DNA from: Candidatus Nitrosocosmicus oleophilus
GTDB lineage: Archaea; Thermoproteota; Nitrososphaeria; Nitrososphaerales; Nitrososphaeraceae
NCBI RefSeq assembly: GCF_000802205.1
Contig: NZ_CP012850.1
Span: 3,002,587 to 3,066,586, forward strand
Direction of reading: 5' to 3'
DNA: 64,000 bases
Below are positions 14,600-64,000 of the stretch, piece by piece (position 1 is the stretch's first letter; each line of letters begins with the position of its first letter). The notes under the pieces are model-generated. The model ran no database searches, was not told where the DNA came from, and saw only the letters and a list, made by a program, of their open reading frames with translations. The position numbers were made by a program, and so were the translations under genes.

Positions 14600-15250
14600 T
14601 TAGTCCCACTTACTCCATGCAGCCATCCATCTGTAAGTCCAAGTATTGAGTTTTGCACCCAAGGCCGCTATAGGTACACAAAGCACCGCTCCAGCTCCTG
14701 CTCCCAACGCGACAGGACTGTTATAGAACTTTCCTACCTGTGGTTCAATTGGAGTCATGTATGGTGGTAATGTGGGTCTAGGATATTTGAATGCCATTTC
14801 TAATGGGTCAGCAACCAGCAATAAGTTAATCATATTAAACAGTGGGAGTGACATTCCTACCAATACACCACCAATTAATATAGCCGCGTGTTTGTTTCTT
14901 CTTGTTGCCCAGTACGCCAAATCCAATAACATAGCAGACGGTATCCAAACAGGAACCACGACAAAATCGTACGGGTATCCCAATGCGAACCATGCTCCTT
15001 TGGCAACCCATGTATAAATCGTCATAATAGTTGCGTAATACGTAGCCGTGCCAGGGACACCGGTAAACAACATATAGTATATAGCTCCTACCACAAGCAT
15101 TGTGGATTGAGAAATCGAGAATACGACGAATGATGTCCATGCCCAGTCAGTATAGAAGATATAATCTCCTGCGTTGATTGTAAGCAACGTACTATTTACT
15201 GCAACAACAACTATGAACAAATAGTGAGTTGTACGTCTTAACCAGACCAT
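14600..15250 (-). CDS. amoA: Ammonia monooxygenase subunit A (archaeal)
   Basis: Membrane subunit of the ammonia-oxidising copper enzyme and the standard marker gene for these archaea. The 216-aa length and sequence (MVWLRRTTHYLFIVVVAVNS, TINAGDYIFYTDWAWTSF, FALGYPYDFVVVPVWIPSAM, YWATRRNKHAAILIGG) are those of archaeal AmoA, with about six membrane helices and the conserved short C-terminus WMAAWSKWD. An ATG start lies 150 bp after amoX on the same strand, so the pair may be co-transcribed from upstream of amoX. The 3' side opens on a 2.1-kb gap. Confidence 0.98.
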   Translation of the reverse strand: MVWLRRTTHYLFIVVVAVNSTLLTINAGDYIFYTDWAWTSFVVFSISQSTMLVVGAIYYMLFTGVPGTATYYATIMTIYTWVAKGAWFALGYPYDFVVVPVWIPSAMLLDLAYWATRRNKHAAILIGGVLVGMSLPLFNMINLLLVADPLEMAFKYPRPTLPPYMTPIEPQVGKFYNSPVALGAGAGAVLCVPIAALGAKLNTWTYRWMAAWSKWD

Positions 15251-15401
15251 TATTATGCTGTTCTTATAGGTAGTATATAAGATTTTGTGTATATTTTTTT
15301 AAAAATCTACAATTACTTGAATAAATAATTTAATTATGACTATTTCTAAACTATTAATAATATCTATAATTTTTGAACTTAAAAAGATAAAATGTAGGAT
15401 A

Positions 15402-15749
15402 TTACATCCTTACTGGTTTTTCACCAGCTATTTTCAGCATCCAGATCATTCCCAAAACTTCAATAACGGTCAAAACAGATAGAGCATATAGACCACTTGG
15501 TAACGGATATGCCCATGGATACACAGTAACACCAACATAGACACCACCAGCTGTAGCCACCCAACATAATATAAAGCCCAAAACTATAATACCTCTCATA
15601 TTTTCGACTCTACGGCCAATCATACGCTCGATTTCGTCTCTGCTTGCTCCTGATGAACCACTACTGCCACCACCACTATTACTACTACCACTATTACTAC
15701 TACCAGATCCAGTTTGTGCACTAGGTTTATACCCTTTTGGTAAAGTCAT
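15402..15749 (-). CDS. amoX: AmoX, ammonia monooxygenase-associated membrane protein
   Basis: A 115-aa protein found beside amoA in ammonia-oxidising archaea and proposed as an extra subunit of the complex. A low-complexity Ser/Gly-rich segment (about residues 11-36) follows the first ten residues. Then comes a charged helix (RDEIERMIGRRVENM) and two membrane helices (about 52-72 and 82-104), ending GEKPVRM. Its order (amoX then amoA on one strand) matches group I.1b organisms. The Ser/Gly linker is longer than I would expect for the core family, but this is not decisive. Confidence 0.88.
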   Translation of the reverse strand: MTLPKGYKPSAQTGSGSSNSGSSNSGGGSSGSSGASRDEIERMIGRRVENMRGIIVLGFILCWVATAGGVYVGVTVYPWAYPLPSGLYALSVLTVIEVLGMIWMLKIAGEKPVRM

Positions 15750-26730: not shown

Positions 26731-27960
26731 ATGTTTGATGGCTATGCTTCTGTCACAGTTATGGGTAAACTGCTAAAGAAGATCGTCGCAGATTACACAG
26801 ATCTTTTAAGCGAGCCAGTGAGGTTTGAAGGCCTACTCAAAGATATATACGGCTCTGAAAATAAGAGGGAAATATTTTTGCTTACTGTCGCCCTTAGGGC
26901 TAGAATAACTGAGTTTCGAGAGTGTAATATCTTTGATAAGGATACTGAAAACAAGATTTACAACGTGATCACCAGATTATCCTCAGATTATGGATTGGAT
27001 GAAAAATCTGCTGCATGGGCGACTATTGCTTGGTCTATTGGATTTGATCTGATGACAGAAGAAGAGTTTAATGATTTGGCAAATGGTAATAGATCAGAAA
27101 GATATTTGATCCTCGGCAATCATATTGCGAATATGGATGAGGGCATCCAACAAGGGGAAGTTTTGCAGTGTAATCCAATCTCCAATTTAGTAATGGTAAA
27201 CACAGCCAATCTAAAACAGTTATATGAAAATGGAATAATGTTCCATAACCAAGGTAAATTTGTAGAAGCATTAGAATGCTATGATAAAGCACTAAGAATA
27301 GATCCCCAGAATTCTAATGTTTTATCTAATAAGGGGTTGTCTCTTCATAACCAAGGTAAATTTGTAGAAGCATTAGAATGCTATGATAAAGCACTAAGAA
27401 TAGATCCCCAGGATGAATTCATAATCAAGAGAAGGAACAATACCAAAGAGTTATTATTTAACTCTAGCAACAATGCAAGATCTGGTCAAGCCATAGGTCA
27501 AGTATCAAACTTGAACAATGGCTTGAAAAATTCTAACAAGTTATACTTTCTAGGATTAGCATTAGCTGCAGTACTCTTGACAATAGGTGTAGTTACGTAT
27601 ATAATTTTCGGAACAAATATTGACCTTAAAGTAAATCTTTTAGAGGACAAATCCGAGTTAAATGGTTATGTTTCCACTAATAATAACGCTCTAACAAATC
27701 AGGGTTTAGAATCACCGGGTATTTCCTCCGATAAAGAATCAATTTCAGAATTCACGAATAATATAGAAAAAGAATTGAATCTCCAGATAAATAGTGAAAA
27801 CCAGTCCCTTTTGCAAAATGTAAATAAATCAGAGGCACACTCTAATACTGGAAATTCACAGAGTAATGGCATAGAGTCTGATGGTTTGAATGGAGTGGAT
27901 CAAAAGGTAGACAATTTTAAAACAGAGCTAGGTAAAGCAATGAAAAGCAACTTTAGCTAA
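26731..27960 (+). CDS. Membrane-anchored TPR protein next to kinase-phosphatase operon
   Basis: A 409-aa protein. Residues 8-115 form a helical domain (LLSEPVRFEGLLKDIYG, KREIFLLTVALRARI, LDEKSAAWATIAWSIGFDL) of a kind I associate with bacterial signalling proteins joined to kinases or TPRs. Residues about 165-230 hold two TPR repeats with almost the same sequence (HNQGKFVEALECYDKALRI). One membrane helix lies at about 271-292, then a 115-residue Asn/Ser-rich tail that would face outside. It converges on the PP2C gene with 48 bp between the stops. It may sense or localise the vWA-kinase-phosphatase set; that is inference. Confidence 0.7.
   Translation: MFDGYASVTVMGKLLKKIVADYTDLLSEPVRFEGLLKDIYGSENKREIFLLTVALRARITEFRECNIFDKDTENKIYNVITRLSSDYGLDEKSAAWATIAWSIGFDLMTEEEFNDLANGNRSERYLILGNHIANMDEGIQQGEVLQCNPISNLVMVNTANLKQLYENGIMFHNQGKFVEALECYDKALRIDPQNSNVLSNKGLSLHNQGKFVEALECYDKALRIDPQDEFIIKRRNNTKELLFNSSNNARSGQAIGQVSNLNNGLKNSNKLYFLGLALAAVLLTIGVVTYIIFGTNIDLKVNLLEDKSELNGYVSTNNNALTNQGLESPGISSDKESISEFTNNIEKELNLQINSENQSLLQNVNKSEAHSNTGNSQSNGIESDGLNGVDQKVDNFKTELGKAMKSNFS
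27244..27411 (+). repeat. Duplicated 66-bp TPR segment
   Basis: The blocks 27244-27309 and 27346-27411 appear identical over 66 bases, with a 102-base period equal to one 34-residue TPR. Identity at synonymous sites shows a recent duplication or gene conversion inside the TPR gene. Confidence 0.85.
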
Positions 27961-28008
27961 TAAAAAAACAAATCTTTGGTTTTTTATCAATCTTGAGCAG
28001 GCATTAAT

Positions 28009-28932
28009 CTACATCTGATAAATCAAACCAAGAGTTATATCATCACCACTCCCTTCGAGAGAGGTTTGTTTTAATATGTTGCAAAGATTCTTACTCAAGT
28101 ACGAAAACCCGAATTTCTCCAAAAGTGCTAAATAATCAAGTCCGATTTTAAGAAAGCCAGATTCACTGCTAAAGGAATTGCAATATCCATCGGTAGATAA
28201 CAAAATCAACTTCGGTTTTAAGGCCTGAAAGTCAAATATTCCAGTTTTGAATTCTAGCCAACTATTGTCCATGCAAAGTGATTCGGTATGAATAATTGAT
28301 TCGATTGATGAGTTGTCATCAGAGTCACTGTTCTTATTGGAAAACATACATCTTACGTTCTGGTCATTGTCAACAATCAATATATTACCATCACCCAGTT
28401 GAAAAAATATGAAATAATTTTTTGTTATGACTGCAGTCAATAATGTGGATCCATAAGCGATCTTTGGATTGTTAACTATTTTTTCTAATATGAGGGGACC
28501 TTTCTTTTTCAATATGAGGTCAATCTCGCTGTTTGAAAAAGGATGTTTTTGCACATGATATTGCACTCGATCCATCCAATTATGTACTAATAGACGAGGC
28601 GCGGAGTATCTAATAATATCCCTTACCTGAAAAACATTATCGATTTCAATTGGTTGATTATGAAATAGGTCAAATAAAGTTTCTACCGCAATTTTGACTG
28701 CAAATTGTGAACCGACTTTGCTTCTAAAATGTATATCACTTCCATGACCATCTGCAACTGACATGACTACAGTGTTAGACGTATGAGATTGTTTCCACCT
28801 AATTGAATCTTGATTGGAAAAACCAGTTCGTGAATGTGATGCGCCCTCTACACTTTTGCTGTACACTAACCACTTTTTTGAATTTGATGTTATACATTTA
28901 TCAAAGATTTGTGTGGTATTAATTTCAATCAT
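28009..28932 (-). CDS. PP2C-family protein phosphatase
   Basis: Mn/Mg-dependent Ser/Thr phosphatase, 307 aa, last gene of the vWA-kinase-phosphatase operon. Metal-site motifs are SNQDSIRW, VADGHGSD, the later STDGYCNSF and C-terminal SGDDITLGL. It presumably reverses the neighbouring kinase. No membrane segment or signal is present. It follows the kinase gene by 15 bp, which implies one transcript. In TerY-P triads of bacteria a PP2C of this divergent kind is standard. Confidence 0.9.
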   Translation of the reverse strand: MIEINTTQIFDKCITSNSKKWLVYSKSVEGASHSRTGFSNQDSIRWKQSHTSNTVVMSVADGHGSDIHFRSKVGSQFAVKIAVETLFDLFHNQPIEIDNVFQVRDIIRYSAPRLLVHNWMDRVQYHVQKHPFSNSEIDLILKKKGPLILEKIVNNPKIAYGSTLLTAVITKNYFIFFQLGDGNILIVDNDQNVRCMFSNKNSDSDDNSSIESIIHTESLCMDNSWLEFKTGIFDFQALKPKLILLSTDGYCNSFSSESGFLKIGLDYLALLEKFGFSYLSKNLCNILKQTSLEGSGDDITLGLIYQM

Positions 28933-28947
28933 GAGTCCATTATGTCC

Positions 28948-30387
28948 CTAGTAGCAAACCACACCCTTAGAGGTGCCAAAGTCTATTTGAGTACCTGGCA
29001 CTAAGGAGAAACTTTGCTTTGAATAAACCTCAATTACATCACCATTAGCCTTGCCAACTTTCCAAGTACATGCAGAAAGATTCTTCAATCCCCAGACCCC
29101 GGGATCAGTTGGATGCCTAGAAACTTCTGCTATAGGATTAGAGAAATCGTATTTGCGGTCCGGATCTATGTGATGAAGGAATAATTTGGTGTCATGATTT
29201 AAAGCAACAAACAATCGATCATCAATTCGAATATTCAAAATGTGAGTATTCATAGTTTTACATTTTGGATTCCAACAAAGAGGATTGCTTTGTACCCCCT
29301 TGGCCATATTGCTTTGTTTCCAAACATTATTGTCAGGATTAACTCCACCCAGGTCTACGGGGATCTTTAATTTTTCAAGTACAAAGGAATCAGTAGCAAG
29401 GAAATTCTCAGAACCACAACGTTTACAATAATATAGAGAATCGCGTAACGCGAGCAAAGCAATTTGCCATTCAGTTTCTCTGACCCTTCCATGCATCGGG
29501 TCCGTAATACCATTGGTAAAAGCCCTTATGAAAATTCTTTTAATAAAATCGGGATAAATACTCCAAAATATTATGGCATTCTCATGAAAAGCTGGATCAG
29601 GATAATTGGAATCATTGCTAGGATCAAATATGAAAATCGGTTCGAAACCGTATAGTTTAGACATGGAAGGTAGGTCAAGACTTTTGATGGAACTTTCGAT
29701 CTTGCCTTCCAATGGATGGTTTAGAAACAAAATATAAAATAATATTATTGCTAACGAGTATAAATCTGTTTGGGTATTTGGTAACGCTTTTCCAACTATT
29801 ATTTCTGGGGCCATGAATTTAGGGGTCCCTATTACGTTACCTTTATCTTGACCATTTACTACAATATTATCTGTATCTCCTATGCGTATTTCCCCATTTT
29901 CAGGGTCAAAATAAATATTATTTAGGGATAAATCCTGATAACAAAGGCCCTTTGAATGCAATAGATGAAAACTTTGTACCAATTCAAAGCAGGCGGTCAG
30001 CAACACTTTAAAGGAAGGATCAATTTTCCTAGATAGCCATAAACTAAAACTTTTAAATCTCGATTCCTTCATGACCATTGCGTATCCAAATCCTTCTTTA
30101 TTTGGAGTTTTAACTAGTGCCAAAGGCCAAAGAAACCGATTACTTGGAGAATCTTTTTGAATTAGAGATTTGAGAATATCATATTGCTCTTTAGTAGCCA
30201 TGGAAGGAAAATACCACTTTAGAACAAGTTGAGTATTATCTGGACTGATTAATGAATATACCTTACCTTGGGTACCTGAACCCAATTCTTTTTCAATATT
30301 GCAAACTATGTTTAGGCTGTTTATGTGGACTGGCTCACCCGCTTGAAACTCGTGCGTGGTGTTCATTTGTTTAGCCTTTGGAATCAA
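28948..30387 (-). CDS. Ser/Thr protein kinase with zinc ribbon and FHA-like tail
   Basis: 479 aa if started at the TTG; an ATG at 30366 with an upstream aaagg is a good alternative. The kinase domain covers about residues 28-300: glycine loop GSGTQGKVY, Lys57, catalytic loop CYQDLSLNN (Tyr in place of the His of HRD), GDTDN in place of DFG, and GTPKFMAPE. A zinc ribbon follows (YYCKRCGSEN, later LCWNPKC). The last 90 residues are beta-rich (GVWGLKNLSACTWKV, GDVIEVYSKQSFSLVPGTQI) and resemble an FHA fold that would bind phosphothreonine. This order matches kinases of TerY-P triads. Confidence 0.88.
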   Translation of the reverse strand: MIPKAKQMNTTHEFQAGEPVHINSLNIVCNIEKELGSGTQGKVYSLISPDNTQLVLKWYFPSMATKEQYDILKSLIQKDSPSNRFLWPLALVKTPNKEGFGYAMVMKESRFKSFSLWLSRKIDPSFKVLLTACFELVQSFHLLHSKGLCYQDLSLNNIYFDPENGEIRIGDTDNIVVNGQDKGNVIGTPKFMAPEIIVGKALPNTQTDLYSLAIILFYILFLNHPLEGKIESSIKSLDLPSMSKLYGFEPIFIFDPSNDSNYPDPAFHENAIIFWSIYPDFIKRIFIRAFTNGITDPMHGRVRETEWQIALLALRDSLYYCKRCGSENFLATDSFVLEKLKIPVDLGGVNPDNNVWKQSNMAKGVQSNPLCWNPKCKTMNTHILNIRIDDRLFVALNHDTKLFLHHIDPDRKYDFSNPIAEVSRHPTDPGVWGLKNLSACTWKVGKANGDVIEVYSKQSFSLVPGTQIDFGTSKGVVCY

Positions 30388-30393
30388 AATTAT

Positions 30394-31086
30394 TTACCAC
30401 ACATCGGTAGCTCCCGATATTATTTCAGGAGGTTTAGGTATGTCAACATTAGAAATAGATCCGTCATAGTATTTTTGTTGGCTTTTGGGTCTAGCTGAAG
30501 CTGTTTGCACGACTGTTGATACCCATTTTATATATTTTGTGAGCGATTCGGGGTTTCGCGCCAATAGCGGTTGTCTTTCATTGTCTCCAATAAACCTTTG
30601 AAGAACATCCATGTTTGCGTCCTCACCGATTGCAATAGATACTCGAATTGCCTTTCGACCCCATGGTTCTGACAACAATTTTTCCAAACCATCTTTAAAA
30701 TTATCAGTGGGTTGTCCATCAGAGAGCAATACCAATACTGGTGGTAACCCCCTTTCAGTCATTGGAGGTATGCGCAAGATTTCAGATAGTAAAAGGAAAG
30801 CTTGTCCCAAATCAGTTTCACCCTTCGCCTCTATATCAGTCCATTTGAATTCATTTACCCTTGTAGGGGCAATAATCCATTGTGCACCTGTGGAAAACTT
30901 TAATGCACTTATTAACAGATTTGCTTGGATATTATTTTCAGATTCTCTTTGCATATGAGGAATTGCCTCTTTGATAGCATAATTCAAGGCCTGGATCTTT
31001 CCATCATCTCTCATAGATCCCGAGCAATCTACAATCCAGATAAAATGTAGTTCTCTTTTTGAAATTTCACCACCTGGAAGAGTCAT
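30394..31086 (-). CDS. TerY-like vWA-domain protein
   Basis: First gene of the triad, 230 aa, a single von Willebrand A domain. The metal-site (MIDAS) motif DCSGSM is at residues 20-25, with the Thr in KGETDLGQAF and the Asp in LLSDGQPTD. A short Ser/Pro-rich tail (ASARPKSQQKYY) may be a phosphorylation target. I prefer the ATG at 31086 to the TTG at 31095, since the TATA box sits about 25-30 bp before it. It ends six bases before the kinase gene. TerY proteins are thought to assemble partners through the metal site. Confidence 0.88.
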   Translation of the reverse strand: MTLPGGEISKRELHFIWIVDCSGSMRDDGKIQALNYAIKEAIPHMQRESENNIQANLLISALKFSTGAQWIIAPTRVNEFKWTDIEAKGETDLGQAFLLLSEILRIPPMTERGLPPVLVLLSDGQPTDNFKDGLEKLLSEPWGRKAIRVSIAIGEDANMDVLQRFIGDNERQPLLARNPESLTKYIKWVSTVVQTASARPKSQQKYYDGSISNVDIPKPPEIISGATDVW

Positions 31087-31108
31087 AAAAATCAAAAAAA
31101 ATAGATGG

Positions 31109-31120
31109 ATAATATTTATA
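31109..31120 (-). promoter_or_regulatory. TATA box of the triad operon
   Basis: On the minus strand ttataaatatta lies about 25-30 bp before the vWA start, fitting a leaderless or near-leaderless mRNA. The IS at 31243 lies outside it, so the core promoter is intact although any upstream activator site could have been displaced. Confidence 0.5.
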
Positions 31121-31234
31121 ACAATTTCACCTAATAGTATCTTAGATTTCTTATGATGAATTTTTTTTAATAAATAGATATGTTTACTTGGATATGAAAA
31201 ACTGAGAAAAAAGTGAATTTTTCATCATAATCCT

Positions 31235-31242: not shown

Positions 31243-32239
31243 TGCTTTGTCGCCTAACTCAACATATTTAGCTGGAATGAACAGATTGATTATTTGTGAT
31301 AGACTGGCCCTCTTACAATCGCTCATTAGTTCAACGCGGTGAGATCCTCTTCTCGTATGATTTCCTTGATGGTTGGGGTTCAGAGATAGAGAATATGAAT
31401 ATAAACAAAAAGGGTAAACCATTTGTATTTCCAGATTCTTTCATCTTGGCCATTGGTTACATTCGCTATTTATTTCACCTACCATACAGACAAACCCAAG
31501 GTATAATTAAGGCCACAGGAAAAAGGTTACCTGCTAATCCACCAAGTTATGGTCACATCTGTAAACGAATCAACAAGCTAAACATCGATATTAAAAGAGA
31601 CAAGATGGATGACGATGATGACCTAATAATATCAATAGACAGTACAGGTATCAAGATTACTAACAGAGGTCAGTGGATGGATGAGAAATGGAATACACAA
31701 AATAGAAAAGGATATCTCAAGATCCACGTTGCTGTAGACATAAAGACCAGGAAAATCATTGCTTTGGAAGTGACAGATGAGAAGGTACATGATGGGAAAA
31801 TGCTAAAGAAACTAGTCAATCATGTTTTGGATTCGAGAGAACCAAACACTGTAAAGATAAAATCGGTACTAGCTGATGGAGCCTATGATTCAAATCCAAA
31901 CTTTGTGTATCTTGAGGACAAAAAGATCAATCCAGGTATAAAGGTAAGAAGGAACTCTATTGTTTCTCCTAAAAACAATAGGTTAAGGAACAACGAAGTA
32001 AAGTTACAAGCAAAGGATCTGTTGAAATGGAAGACAAAAAGAAAATACGGACAGAGATGGATATCTGAAACTGTGTTCTCAGCTATAAAGAGAATGTTTG
32101 GTGAATACACATCAGCAAACAGGTTTCAAAACATGGTAAAGGAGATCATGATAAAAGTATCATTGTATAACATTTTTAGAAGAATATAACATGATGATCA
32201 TGATGATAACCGGAGAATAAGGAATTATGCAACAAAGCA
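31243..32239 (+). mobile_element. Complete IS5-family element, ISH1-like group
   Basis: A 997-bp element with imperfect terminal inverted repeats: left tgctttgtcgcctaactc against right (complement) tgctttgttgcataattc, 15 of 18 matching. It encodes one transposase filling most of its length and is flanked by an exact 8-bp duplication, so it inserted recently and singly. A second copy in opposite orientation begins at 63522. It sits upstream of the vWA-kinase-PP2C operon. Confidence 0.9.
31296..32189 (+). CDS. IS5-family DDE transposase
   Basis: A 297-aa transposase starting GTG, MIDWPSYNRSLVQRGEILFS. DDE residues are likely Asp115 (SIDSTGIK), Asp194 (LADGAYDS) and Glu258 (RWISETVFSAIKRMFGEY). 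An N-terminal helical region binds the element ends. The frame is intact and the C-terminal 141 residues are identical to the copy at the window end, so it is probably active. An internal IS5-type start within 53 bp of the left end is usual. Confidence 0.93.
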   Translation: MIDWPSYNRSLVQRGEILFSYDFLDGWGSEIENMNINKKGKPFVFPDSFILAIGYIRYLFHLPYRQTQGIIKATGKRLPANPPSYGHICKRINKLNIDIKRDKMDDDDDLIISIDSTGIKITNRGQWMDEKWNTQNRKGYLKIHVAVDIKTRKIIALEVTDEKVHDGKMLKKLVNHVLDSREPNTVKIKSVLADGAYDSNPNFVYLEDKKINPGIKVRRNSIVSPKNNRLRNNEVKLQAKDLLKWKTKRKYGQRWISETVFSAIKRMFGEYTSANRFQNMVKEIMIKVSLYNIFRRI

Positions 32240-32442: not shown

Positions 32443-32805
32443 TTATTCCGACCTATCTTTATAGGAGTAACTTATACTATTTTTAAAATTATTTATTGAT
32501 TCTATACCTTCTTTGCCCTTCACTATCATTTTGTTAATAGTTTTGCCAGTTGCATTCACCATTGTTGGTAACTCGTTAACGACATTCATTGCCAAATCAA
32601 GAATTTGTTTGAATGAAGTTTCAGAATCCTTTATTTTAAGAGGTGAGTTCCTTTCAATCGAATCCTTTATTGTTCGTGTGACATCACTTTCTAAATGATC
32701 TGGAATGTTGCTCTCTGATCTGGTTATGTTCTCAACATCAATTTTCTTATCGATTCCAACGGTATTATTTTCATCCCTATAGCTGTCGAAAATATCATGA
32801 GCCAT
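32443..32805 (-). CDS. Hypothetical acidic/helical protein
   Basis: A 120-aa soluble protein. The first 50 residues are polar and acidic (FDSYRDENNTVGIDKK); the second half is amphipathic helix (FKQILDLAMNVVNELPTMV, KTINKMIVKGKEGIESI). No cysteines and no signal peptide. A TATA-like atatttt box lies upstream. Family not recognised. It lies between the IS and the SRP RNA, both unrelated. Confidence 0.45.
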   Translation of the reverse strand: MAHDIFDSYRDENNTVGIDKKIDVENITRSESNIPDHLESDVTRTIKDSIERNSPLKIKDSETSFKQILDLAMNVVNELPTMVNATGKTINKMIVKGKEGIESINNFKNSISYSYKDRSE

Positions 32806-45209: not shown

Positions 45210-46679
45210 CTATTTCTTTTTCTTAAACCATCCGAATCGGCTTTTTTTCTCAGCTTTTTCCTTCTTTTCTACTTCTTCCTTCACTTGCTCTTCCTTCACT
45301 TGCTCTTCCTTCACTTGCTCTTCCTTCACTTGCTCTTCCTTCACTTGCTCTTCCTTCACTTGCTCTTCCTTCACTTGCTCTTCCTTCACTTGCTCTTCCT
45401 TCACTTGCTCTTCCTTCACTTGCTCTTCCTTCACTTGCTCTTCCTTCACTTGCTCTTCCTTCACTTGCTCTTCCTTCACTTGCTCTTCCTTCACTTGCTC
45501 TTCCTTCACTTGCTCTTCCTTCACTTGCTCTTCCTTCACTTGTATAGACCCGGAAATCTTTTTATTTTCACTAGTAGATTTCCCATTCGAGTACGAGTCT
45601 TGTTGTTCAACAGAAGTACTGAACGAAGACGATGGATCTATTTCTAAATCATCATTCTCTAATTGGTTATACGTATCAGCACTAGTAGTAGCCGCTTCAA
45701 TAACAGGGGCCACATAATTCTCGTTTGACAATGATGATTGAGTACCACGGTAAGAATCAAGGAGCGACTCATTATTGAAAATAGTCTCAACAAATTTTTC
45801 TCTATTGAAATTGATGATATCGTCGTATCCTTGACCTACCCCTAGATAAATAATCGGTTTGGAGGTAATGTAGGATATGGATATTGCTGACCCGCCTTTA
45901 GCATCAGCATCGGTTTTGGTCAGGATTGCACCATCAAATTCTGTATATGAAAAGAACTCTCGTGCTTGATTAATAGTGTCATTACCTGATAAAGAATCAC
46001 CAACGAATAGTTTGATATCAGGTTTGATAACCTTTACAATTTTTCCAATTTCATCCATTAGATTCTTTGCAGTTTGCATCCTTCCCGCAGTATCAATTAA
46101 TACAACATCAATGTAGTGTTTGCTCGCGTACTCTAATGCATCCCTGGAAACAGCAGATGGATCGGCACCGTATCTTTGAGATATCACTTTTATAGATAGT
46201 TTTTCTGCGTGTGATGAAATTTGCTCGATAGCTCCAGCTCTGTGAGTATCAGCGGCGGCAATCACTACTGAAAATCCAGACTTTTTTAGTAAATTAGCCA
46301 CCTTGGCTACAGTGGTAGTTTTTCCTGTCCCATTTATTCCTAAAAATACAATTTTAAACGGTCCACCCTTGCGTTGCTTCTTTTCATTAACCGCAGAAAT
46401 CAAATCAACAGATCCTGCCTTGGCCAGAATCTTTGAAAAATTATCTTTTAAAGTAGCTGCAATAATTTGTTCAGTAGTTTCATTCTTTTGTAATTTCATA
46501 CCCACCAAATTGTCTTTTATTTGCTGCGATAAATCATCTATAACTTCTTGAGAAACATCACTTTCCAAAAGGGCAATATTTAGATCAAAAAGGCTTTCAT
46601 CCAAATCTTTATCAGATAGTTCTCTCTGACTAATGCTCTTTGCAGCACTAGAGAATGCTCGCTTTAATTTATCAAACAT
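45210..46679 (-). CDS. ftsY: SRP receptor GTPase FtsY with a repetitive C-terminal tail
   Basis: Docks SRP-ribosome complexes to the membrane. The 489-aa chain has N domain (about 1-85), G domain with P-loop GINGTGKTTTVAK (114-126), DTHRAGAIEQ, DTAGRMQTAKNLMDE, TKTDADAKGG and GVGQGYDDI (to about 305). A 185-residue tail follows: Ser/Asp/Glu-rich, then 17 exact VKEEQ pentapeptides, then a Lys-rich end (KKSRFGWFKKKK). In many FtsY proteins the charged region is N-terminal; here it is at the C-terminus and may contact membrane or ribosome. It is downstream of pfdA by 54 bp, an order seen in archaea. Confidence 0.96.
   Translation of the reverse strand: MFDKLKRAFSSAAKSISQRELSDKDLDESLFDLNIALLESDVSQEVIDDLSQQIKDNLVGMKLQKNETTEQIIAATLKDNFSKILAKAGSVDLISAVNEKKQRKGGPFKIVFLGINGTGKTTTVAKVANLLKKSGFSVVIAAADTHRAGAIEQISSHAEKLSIKVISQRYGADPSAVSRDALEYASKHYIDVVLIDTAGRMQTAKNLMDEIGKIVKVIKPDIKLFVGDSLSGNDTINQAREFFSYTEFDGAILTKTDADAKGGSAISISYITSKPIIYLGVGQGYDDIINFNREKFVETIFNNESLLDSYRGTQSSLSNENYVAPVIEAATTSADTYNQLENDDLEIDPSSSFSTSVEQQDSYSNGKSTSENKKISGSIQVKEEQVKEEQVKEEQVKEEQVKEEQVKEEQVKEEQVKEEQVKEEQVKEEQVKEEQVKEEQVKEEQVKEEQVKEEQVKEEQVKEEQVKEEVEKKEKAEKKSRFGWFKKKK
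45286..45540 (-). repeat. 17 exact copies of a 15-bp in-frame repeat in ftsY
   Basis: The plus-strand unit tgctcttccttcact repeats 17 times without a visible change over 255 bp, coding VKEEQ on the minus strand. A partial unit flanks it. Because 15 is a multiple of three, copy-number change alters only tail length. Exact identity at synonymous positions shows recent expansion. Confidence 0.95.
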
Positions 46680-63521: not shown

Positions 63522-64000
63522 TGCTTTGTTGCATAATTCCTTATTCTCCGGTTATCATCATGATCATCATGTTATATTCTTCTAAAAATGTTATACAATG
63601 ATACTTTTATCATGATCTCCTTTACCATGTTTTGAAACCTGTTTGCTGATGTGTATTCACCAAACATTCTCTTTATAGCTGAGAACACAGTTTCAGATAT
63701 CCATCTCTGTCCGTATTTTCTTTTTGTCTTCCATTTCAACAGATCCTTTGCTTGTAACTTTACTTCGTTGTTCCTTAACCTATTGTTTTTAGGAGAAACA
63801 ATAGAGTTCCTTCTTACCTTTATACCTGGATTGATCTTTTTGTCCTCAAGATACACAAAGTTTGGATTTGAATCATAGGCTCCATCAGCTAGTACCGATT
63901 TTATCTTTACAGTGTTTGGTTCTCTCGAATCCAAAACATGATTGACTAGTTTCTTTAGCATTTTCCCATCATGTACCTTCTCATCTGTCACTTCCAAAGC
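63522..64000 (-). mobile_element. Second copy of the ISH1-like IS5 element (cut by window end)
   Basis: tgctttgttgcataattcc at 63522 is the same terminal repeat as the right end of the element at 31243-32239, reversed. The sequence inward matches that element's downstream end and transposase without a visible change. The candidate target duplication on this side is tatgtttg (63514-63521); the other side is outside the window. Confidence 0.9.
63572..64000 (-). CDS. IS5-family transposase, C-terminal part (partial)
   Basis: The last 141 residues are identical to the copy at 31296-32189, including ADGAYDS and SETVFSAIKRMFGEY. The N-terminal half is beyond position 64000. Confidence 0.9.
   Translation of the reverse strand, partial: ALEVTDEKVHDGKMLKKLVNHVLDSREPNTVKIKSVLADGAYDSNPNFVYLEDKKINPGIKVRRNSIVSPKNNRLRNNEVKLQAKDLLKWKTKRKYGQRWISETVFSAIKRMFGEYTSANRFQNMVKEIMIKVSLYNIFRRI

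Follow-up and report, generated by a model that had tools for sequence, protein, structure and literature searches.

The DNA analysed here (the window, 64,000 nucleotides at its full length) is that of a Candidatus Nitrosocosmicus archaeon, an ammonia oxidiser: at 14600-15749, amo genes were recognised from their sequence, and the public records of close relatives of the locus under study bear the name Nitrosocosmicus. This locus comprises four open reading frames (ORFs), one encoding a membrane protein with tetratricopeptide repeats (TPR protein) and, converging on it from the opposite strand, three encoding a PP2C phosphatase, a Ser/Thr kinase and a von Willebrand factor A (vWA) protein (Table 1). 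The initial annotation had placed the latter three in one operon with gaps of 6 bp (kinase/vWA) and 15 bp (PP2C/kinase), with which coordinates, Pfam matches and the cysteines of the kinase zinc ribbon agree, and its description of a convergent TPR protein with one membrane helix, whose stop codon lies 48 bp from that of the PP2C gene, was likewise borne out. The Pfam matches were PP2C_2 (E=2e-30), Pkinase (2e-19), VWA_2 (1.5e-5) and two TPRs (6e-21). With ratios of nonsynonymous to synonymous substitution rates (dN/dS) of 0.03-0.05 for the vWA protein, 0.13-0.19 for the kinase, 0.17-0.18 for PP2C and 0.26-0.41 for the TPR protein, each of the four genes shows purifying selection and thus is not a chance ORF. 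The N-terminal ~110 residues of the TPR protein, on which much of the following turns, are referred to as TPRN.

Table 1 Features of the four-gene locus and its surroundings, with positions counted from the first letter of the window.
Feature	Position	Strand	Basis
Membrane TPR protein, 409 aa, partner of the triad	26731-27960	+	ORF, Pfam, alignment; one copy per genome
TPRN, N-terminal helical domain, aa ~10-122, proposed docking domain	26758-27096	+	AlphaFold2 (AF2) model, profile matches
Two TPR units, near-identical within each genome	27214-27426	+	Pfam; concerted evolution; dN/dS ~0.1
Single transmembrane helix, aa 274-292	27550-27606	+	Prediction
Conserved last 19 residues, ..FKxELxxAMxSNF, predicted external region	27901-27957	+	Alignment; dN/dS 0-0.05
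PP2C phosphatase	28009-28932	-	Pfam, invariant residues
Ser/Thr kinase; start TTG 30387 or ATG 30366	28948-30387	-	Pfam, alignment, AF2
Split zinc ribbon of the kinase, C321/C324/C371/C376	29260-29427	-	Alignment of 37 kinases
Beta-rich C-terminal domain of the kinase	28951-29250	-	AF2 prediction
TerY-like vWA protein, MIDAS intact	30394-31086	-	Pfam, alignment
Conserved upstream box GGTGAAATTGTTATAAAT, TATA-like element	31114-31131	-	Conserved in syntenic genomes
Fast-evolving protein of 120 aa, encoded 5' of the vWA gene	32443-32805	-	ORF, synteny

The TerY-P triad of Anantharaman et al. (2012), as far as it is taken up in PMC11090510 and PMC4978471, consists of a TerY-like vWA protein, a Ser/Thr kinase with a C-terminal zinc ribbon and a PP2C phosphatase. 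By the definition in PMC11090510 (vWA with a metal-ion-dependent adhesion site, MIDAS; zinc-ribbon kinase; PP2C), the locus is, judged by its predicted proteins, such a triad, and the claim of a TerY-P-type triad in an archaeon holds both for its three components and for their kinship with bacterial TerY-P kinases: the kinase is 29-44% identical over its full length to the kinases of bacterial triads, some of which lie beside TerD, and falls with them into one common tree. In the vWA protein, the slowest evolving of the four, the MIDAS residues D23xS25xS27, T94 and D126 are invariant among the 11 archaeal sequences aligned. The kinase retains the ATP-binding lysine K57, the catalytic aspartate D152, N157, the metal aspartate D171 and the APE motif, with DTD in place of DFG at D171 (DND in most bacterial relatives); its AF2 model has a predicted local distance difference test score (pLDDT) of 88.8, and Foldseek confirms the kinase fold only. 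In the zinc ribbon, C321, C324 and C376 are invariant and C371 is at least 90% conserved among 37 aligned archaeal and bacterial kinases, and an insertion of ~35 residues is confined to the syntenic group of Nitrosocosmicus, being absent from bacteria and from a divergent copy in another genome of the genus (G004). PP2C has D42, D61-G62-H63-G64, D181, D248 and D297-D298 invariant. The tail of the kinase after the zinc ribbon, ~100 residues predicted by AF2 to be beta-rich, had been called FHA-like, an identity that found no support: sequence searches gave no match of this tail to the FHA profile, to a Pfam family or to a PDB chain; no FHA domain was matched anywhere in the genome. An OB-fold was not identified in the tail either, and the zinc ribbon is followed by a beta-rich domain without a recognised fold.

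Translation of the vWA protein probably begins at ATG 31086, whose frame also has a TTG at 31095, because the alignment is conserved from MTLPGG on and a conserved box, GGTGAAATTGTTATAAAT, lies upstream. This box, with its TATA-like element, stands ~30 nt 5' of the vWA ATG in the syntenic genomes and is likely to be the promoter of a leaderless triad mRNA, as its position is that expected for an archaeal leaderless transcript.

The kinase was found in 12 of 15 Nitrosocosmicus genomes, with no full-length match elsewhere in the sampled family; weak matches of the kinase domain in further genera (G015-G049, E>1e-8) were not counted as relatives. Of the 12 kinase-bearing genomes, 11 have the TPR gene next to the triad, and the gene is missing from the three without the kinase. 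In all 11 genomes with a syntenic kinase, site and order are the same, as a check of order conservation showed: ligase, N4-methylase and CLP1-type kinase genes, the TPR gene facing PP2C-kinase-vWA, a gene for a 120-aa protein, and thermosome, L11 and NusG genes, with contig ends cutting off a part in three copies (G012, G013 and G014). An apparent inverted duplication of kinase and PP2C at the start of a contig of one genome (G012, C255) was taken as a probable artefact of assembly and left out of the counts.

The TPR protein is composed of the N-terminal helical domain, two TPRs, one transmembrane helix and a stretch with a conserved terminal peptide. Since Lys and Arg are more abundant on the N-terminal side of the helix in most orthologues, its N-terminus would be inside and its C-terminus outside the cell. 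Between two sub-clades the full-length proteins are only ~30-36% identical; motifs are nevertheless kept in TPRN and in the final ~19 residues, whose dN/dS is near zero. As an observation on the repeats themselves, the two TPR units (27244-27411) share almost all of ~60 nt within a genome, synonymous sites included, and diverge widely between the 11 genomes; there are always two copies with a sharp 3' boundary, i.e. concerted evolution of a tandem two-copy unit.

TPRN, for which AF2 gave an all-helical model with a pLDDT of 79.8, matched no family in Pfam, NCBIfam or PDB, and neither PADLOC nor NCBIfam has a name for the partner protein; a known fold was sought without success, with nothing at E<1 by Foldseek against PDB and nothing credible by a profile search of PDB sequences. 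A profile made from seven N-terminal domains of Nitrosocosmicus only matched, at E<0.01, 18 of the 1,772 ORFs of triad loci, every one of the 18 a triad neighbour, from Chloroflexota, Planctomycetota, Bacillota, Spirochaetota and a Methylomonas plasmid. The fuller profile, to which bacterial sequences had been added, matched 57 proteins in 43 loci and none of the reversed or shuffled ORFs; as it was trained on triad neighbours, a subfamily away from triads could be under-detected. At the level of kinase loci, TPRN is present at 33 of 48, many of the remainder being cut short, and some copies lie on other contigs within triad-bearing genomes.

The proteins that carry TPRN otherwise differ widely. 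Parts fused to it include a transmembrane helix with an external region, GYF with a transmembrane helix, LRR_5, WD40, FISUMP, FGE-sulfatase, TPR, beta-helix, ClpX zinc finger, Clp_N, Tim44 and Sel1, and in one case (L087) it is fused to vWA. Spirochaetes and the plasmid have arrays of several TPRN genes, up to five in number. Exactly one copy occurs in each Nitrosocosmicus genome with the syntenic unit (that of G014 is cut at the contig end). In G263 and G462, which represent a second archaeal lineage, the single copy sits on a leucine-rich repeat (LRR) protein encoded divergently from KIN-VWA-PP2C, where KIN stands for the kinase. On plasmid CP157007 (L120 6318-10854), five consecutive TPRN genes follow KIN-VWA-PP2C, two of which have ClpX zinc-finger and Clp_N domains ahead of TPRN, a possible sign of a connection with Clp proteases. 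FGE-sulfatase or FISUMP domains form the C-terminal ends of partner proteins at L069 11718-12797, L073 5207-8509 and L068 13470-15359.

TPRN and the kinase were also searched independently over the same genomes, 398 of the archaeal phylum and 251 of Chloroflexota. In the archaeal set, each was found in five genomes, and these were the identical five, from two genera. In Chloroflexota, TPRN occurred in four genomes and a strong kinase match (E<1e-140) in the same four, and the seven genomes with weak kinase matches only were without TPRN. In three of the four, TPRN is clustered with the triad, and in the fourth it adjoins the vWA and PP2C genes, the kinase being encoded on a short contig of its own. 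By plain counting from the set sizes, the odds of obtaining identical sets by chance are ~1e-11 for the archaea and 6e-9 for Chloroflexota, figures that treat related genomes as independent, which they are not, so that the real weight of the co-occurrence is that of two archaeal lineages plus Chloroflexota. Among 72,556 plasmid records, TPRN was found in one, the record that matches the kinase best and that has the five TPRN genes after KIN-VWA-PP2C; none of the many enterobacterial ter plasmids whose kinase matches are distant gave TPRN at the E limit used, nor did the one such plasmid examined by profile. The initial reading survives its own refuting condition, a lack of co-occurrence between homologues of the TPR gene and the triad: the two occur together within the genus (11 of 12 kinase-bearing genomes, none of the three kinase-less ones) and, for TPRN, in bacteria and a second archaeal lineage.

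Based on the intact catalytic and MIDAS residues, on the four genes being arranged alike in 11 genomes and on the presence of TPRN on otherwise unrelated proteins next to the same kinase clade in other archaea and in bacteria, we favour, at a probability of about 0.6, a TerY-P-type reversible phosphorylation switch with a dedicated partner that would be recruited through the shared N-terminal helical domain. In such a switch, TPRN would dock its carrier on the vWA protein or the kinase, the kinase would phosphorylate the docked protein or something held by the C-terminal part of the carrier, and PP2C would reset the phosphorylation. In Nitrosocosmicus, the sole partner would be membrane-bound, with the docking domain and the two TPRs inside and the conserved C-terminal peptide outside, and the switch, tied in this way to the cell envelope, might report an outside condition or control a membrane process. 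Through their MIDAS, vWA domains bind peptides or divalent metals, and the same would be expected of the one encoded here. One machine with many clients, of which the single-copy archaeal case would be the simplest form, fits the absence of TPRN from genomes without the kinase clade in the two phylum scans and the arrays of carriers around a single triad. We give about even odds to the wider proposal that TPRN is an unnamed docking domain which defines the clients of a large TerY-P kinase clade in Archaea and Bacteria, the triad being a plug-in hub whose output is set by its clients and Nitrosocosmicus having a fixed single membrane client.

Several points weigh against the favoured explanation. 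About one third of the kinase loci are without TPRN, some of them with ample flanking sequence (L074, L084, L091, L094 and L122), and so is the divergent triad of G004. The partner gene is convergent and on the strand opposite to the triad, so that co-expression is not implied by the operon. Given DTD in place of DFG, activity of the kinase is likely, not certain, and docking, phosphorylation, topology and signal are all inferences from sequence. Were the explanation correct, TPRN beside triads would point to the targets of this poorly understood switch and, as substrates of TerY-P kinases are not established in the literature searched, would supply candidate substrates across many phyla. The locus also places, in ammonia-oxidising archaea and in a genus with cultured members, an entire kinase/phosphatase switch of eukaryote-like type that would be linked to a membrane protein.

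Of the other explanations, the one that survives best, an improbable one in our estimate, is a stand-alone anti-phage defence system of the TerY-P type with a kinase-OB-fold that Gao et al. reportedly described in 2020. TerY-P-like modules do act in phage defence and have links to restriction systems (PMC11090510), and the TPRN-sharing arrays resemble the effector-associated domains (EADs) of ternary conflict systems, in which one small helical domain is common to many variable proteins (PMC7159879, PMC8195603). However, the kinase of Nitrosocosmicus has a zinc ribbon and no identified OB-fold, and no PADLOC model matches vWA, PP2C or partner in Nitrosocosmicus or in bacteria, the kinase matching other kinases only. 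Moreover, the unit is under purifying selection at a fixed site between the CLP1-type kinase and thermosome genes in 11 genomes, and its flanks (CLP1-type kinase, DNA methylase, ligase, thermosome, L11, NusG) hold no McrB-type GTPase, helicase or nuclease of the kind found with CoCoNuT or restriction-linked TerY-P. Bacterial TPRN arrays share with EADs the small helical domain on variable proteins around a core, whereas the core is a kinase/phosphatase triad and not MoxR-vWA or a GTPase, no MoxR AAA+ ATPase was recognised among the flanking genes, and archaeal TPRN is single-copy. Similarly, the GAP1-N2 theme, which PMC7159879 describes from Actinobacteria only, has the same kinase-zinc ribbon-beta domain with PP2C and vWA, but no GAP1/GTPase component was recognised in Nitrosocosmicus.

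Slightly less probable still is a Ter-type metal or tellurite stress switch of which the other Ter genes have been lost. It agrees with the proposal, as cited in PMC11090510 from Anantharaman (2012), that the triad is a metal-sensing phosphorylation switch, with the intact MIDAS of the vWA protein and with clostridial relatives that adjoin TerD genes. On the other hand, TerD was found in none of the 15 genomes of the genus, with control genomes positive, and in this kinase clade it lies nearby in the Bacillota group only. TerC is a below-cut-off fragment with three stops here (G000:C1:1040552-1040728) and intact in one of the 15 genomes, a relative (G002), so that the initial statement that no other ter genes are present stands for terD and has to be qualified for terC. 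The ter cluster of the enterobacterial plasmid NZ_CP026208 has vWA, PP2C and kinase clustered as well, whereas its kinase is ~26% identical, TerD and TerW are present and no TPRN was found. As for the suggested transmembrane or stress-signalling unit of this lineage, the four genes are indeed conserved together, but the unit is not peculiar to the lineage, and nothing favours stress over another signal.

TPRN might also be a homotypic oligomerisation domain for scaffolding, like EADs, through which carriers would cluster with one another and not on kinase or vWA. We regard this as quite unlikely: several carriers per locus with variable fused parts are as in the EAD principle (PMC7159879), but in Nitrosocosmicus and in the other archaeal lineage the single copy has no second one to pair with except itself, and TPRN is also fused, in one case only, to a core component. 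That the TPR gene has no relation to the triad and stays next to it through vertical inheritance alone, as the one inherited site of all 11 Nitrosocosmicus copies and the convergent position outside the operon would allow, is very improbable in view of the TPRN genes that adjoin triads in distant bacteria and a second archaeal lineage and of the exact genome-wide co-occurrence in two phylum scans.

Returning to the favoured switch, the unit is a TerY-P variant and neither a Ter operon nor a standard phage-defence operon. It shares with the TerY-P triad the vWA, zinc-ribbon kinase and PP2C in adjacent genes and differs from it in the archaeal host, in the lack of adjacent Ter, restriction or secretion genes, in the extra beta-rich tail of the kinase and in the fourth partner with its unnamed N-terminal domain. 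Literature searches returned no report of TerY-P in archaea, and neither an archaeal membrane-tethered form nor the shared partner domain was found in the literature searched, which did not include the defining 2012 paper. The triad as such is already known, and priority for TPRN is uncertain, as the 2012 paper may mention the domain.

With regard to history, four genomes (the three triad-less ones and G004) have an empty site, where the interval between the CLP1 and thermosome genes, which point towards each other, is 855-1100 bp long and lacks both the four-gene unit and the 120-aa gene. The simplest reading is a single gain of the block in one sub-clade, since the thermosome is 88-89% identical to that of the window in empty-site genomes vs 94-99% in carriers; the block may instead have been lost. 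G004 has its divergent triad at another site (L036 7795-12979), where PP2C itself bears TPRs and another TPR protein is encoded close by. The unrooted kinase tree splits with 100/100 support into a clade of Nitrosocosmicus, Chloroflexota, Planctomycetota and one acidobacterial orphan and a clade of Bacillota, Spirochaetota, Bacteroidota and other archaea. Because TPRN is found in both, its link to the triad is old or has moved as a cassette. From the place of the Nitrosocosmicus kinase among bacteria in this tree, we infer that the unit was probably acquired from bacteria on the Chloroflexota/Planctomycetota side and then inherited vertically. The 120-aa gene, with only a weak partial Pfam match, is present wherever the upstream side of the syntenic unit is readable, and its product is possibly a fifth member of the unit.

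In this genome only, a DDE transposase gene (31296-32189) lies between the vWA and 120-aa genes, and a further copy, identical to it in protein sequence, is found at the right end of the window (63572-63997). Elsewhere in the window, an FtsY-like signal recognition particle receptor (45210-46679) has a long tandem array of VKEEQ pentapeptides near its C-terminus (45285-45647).

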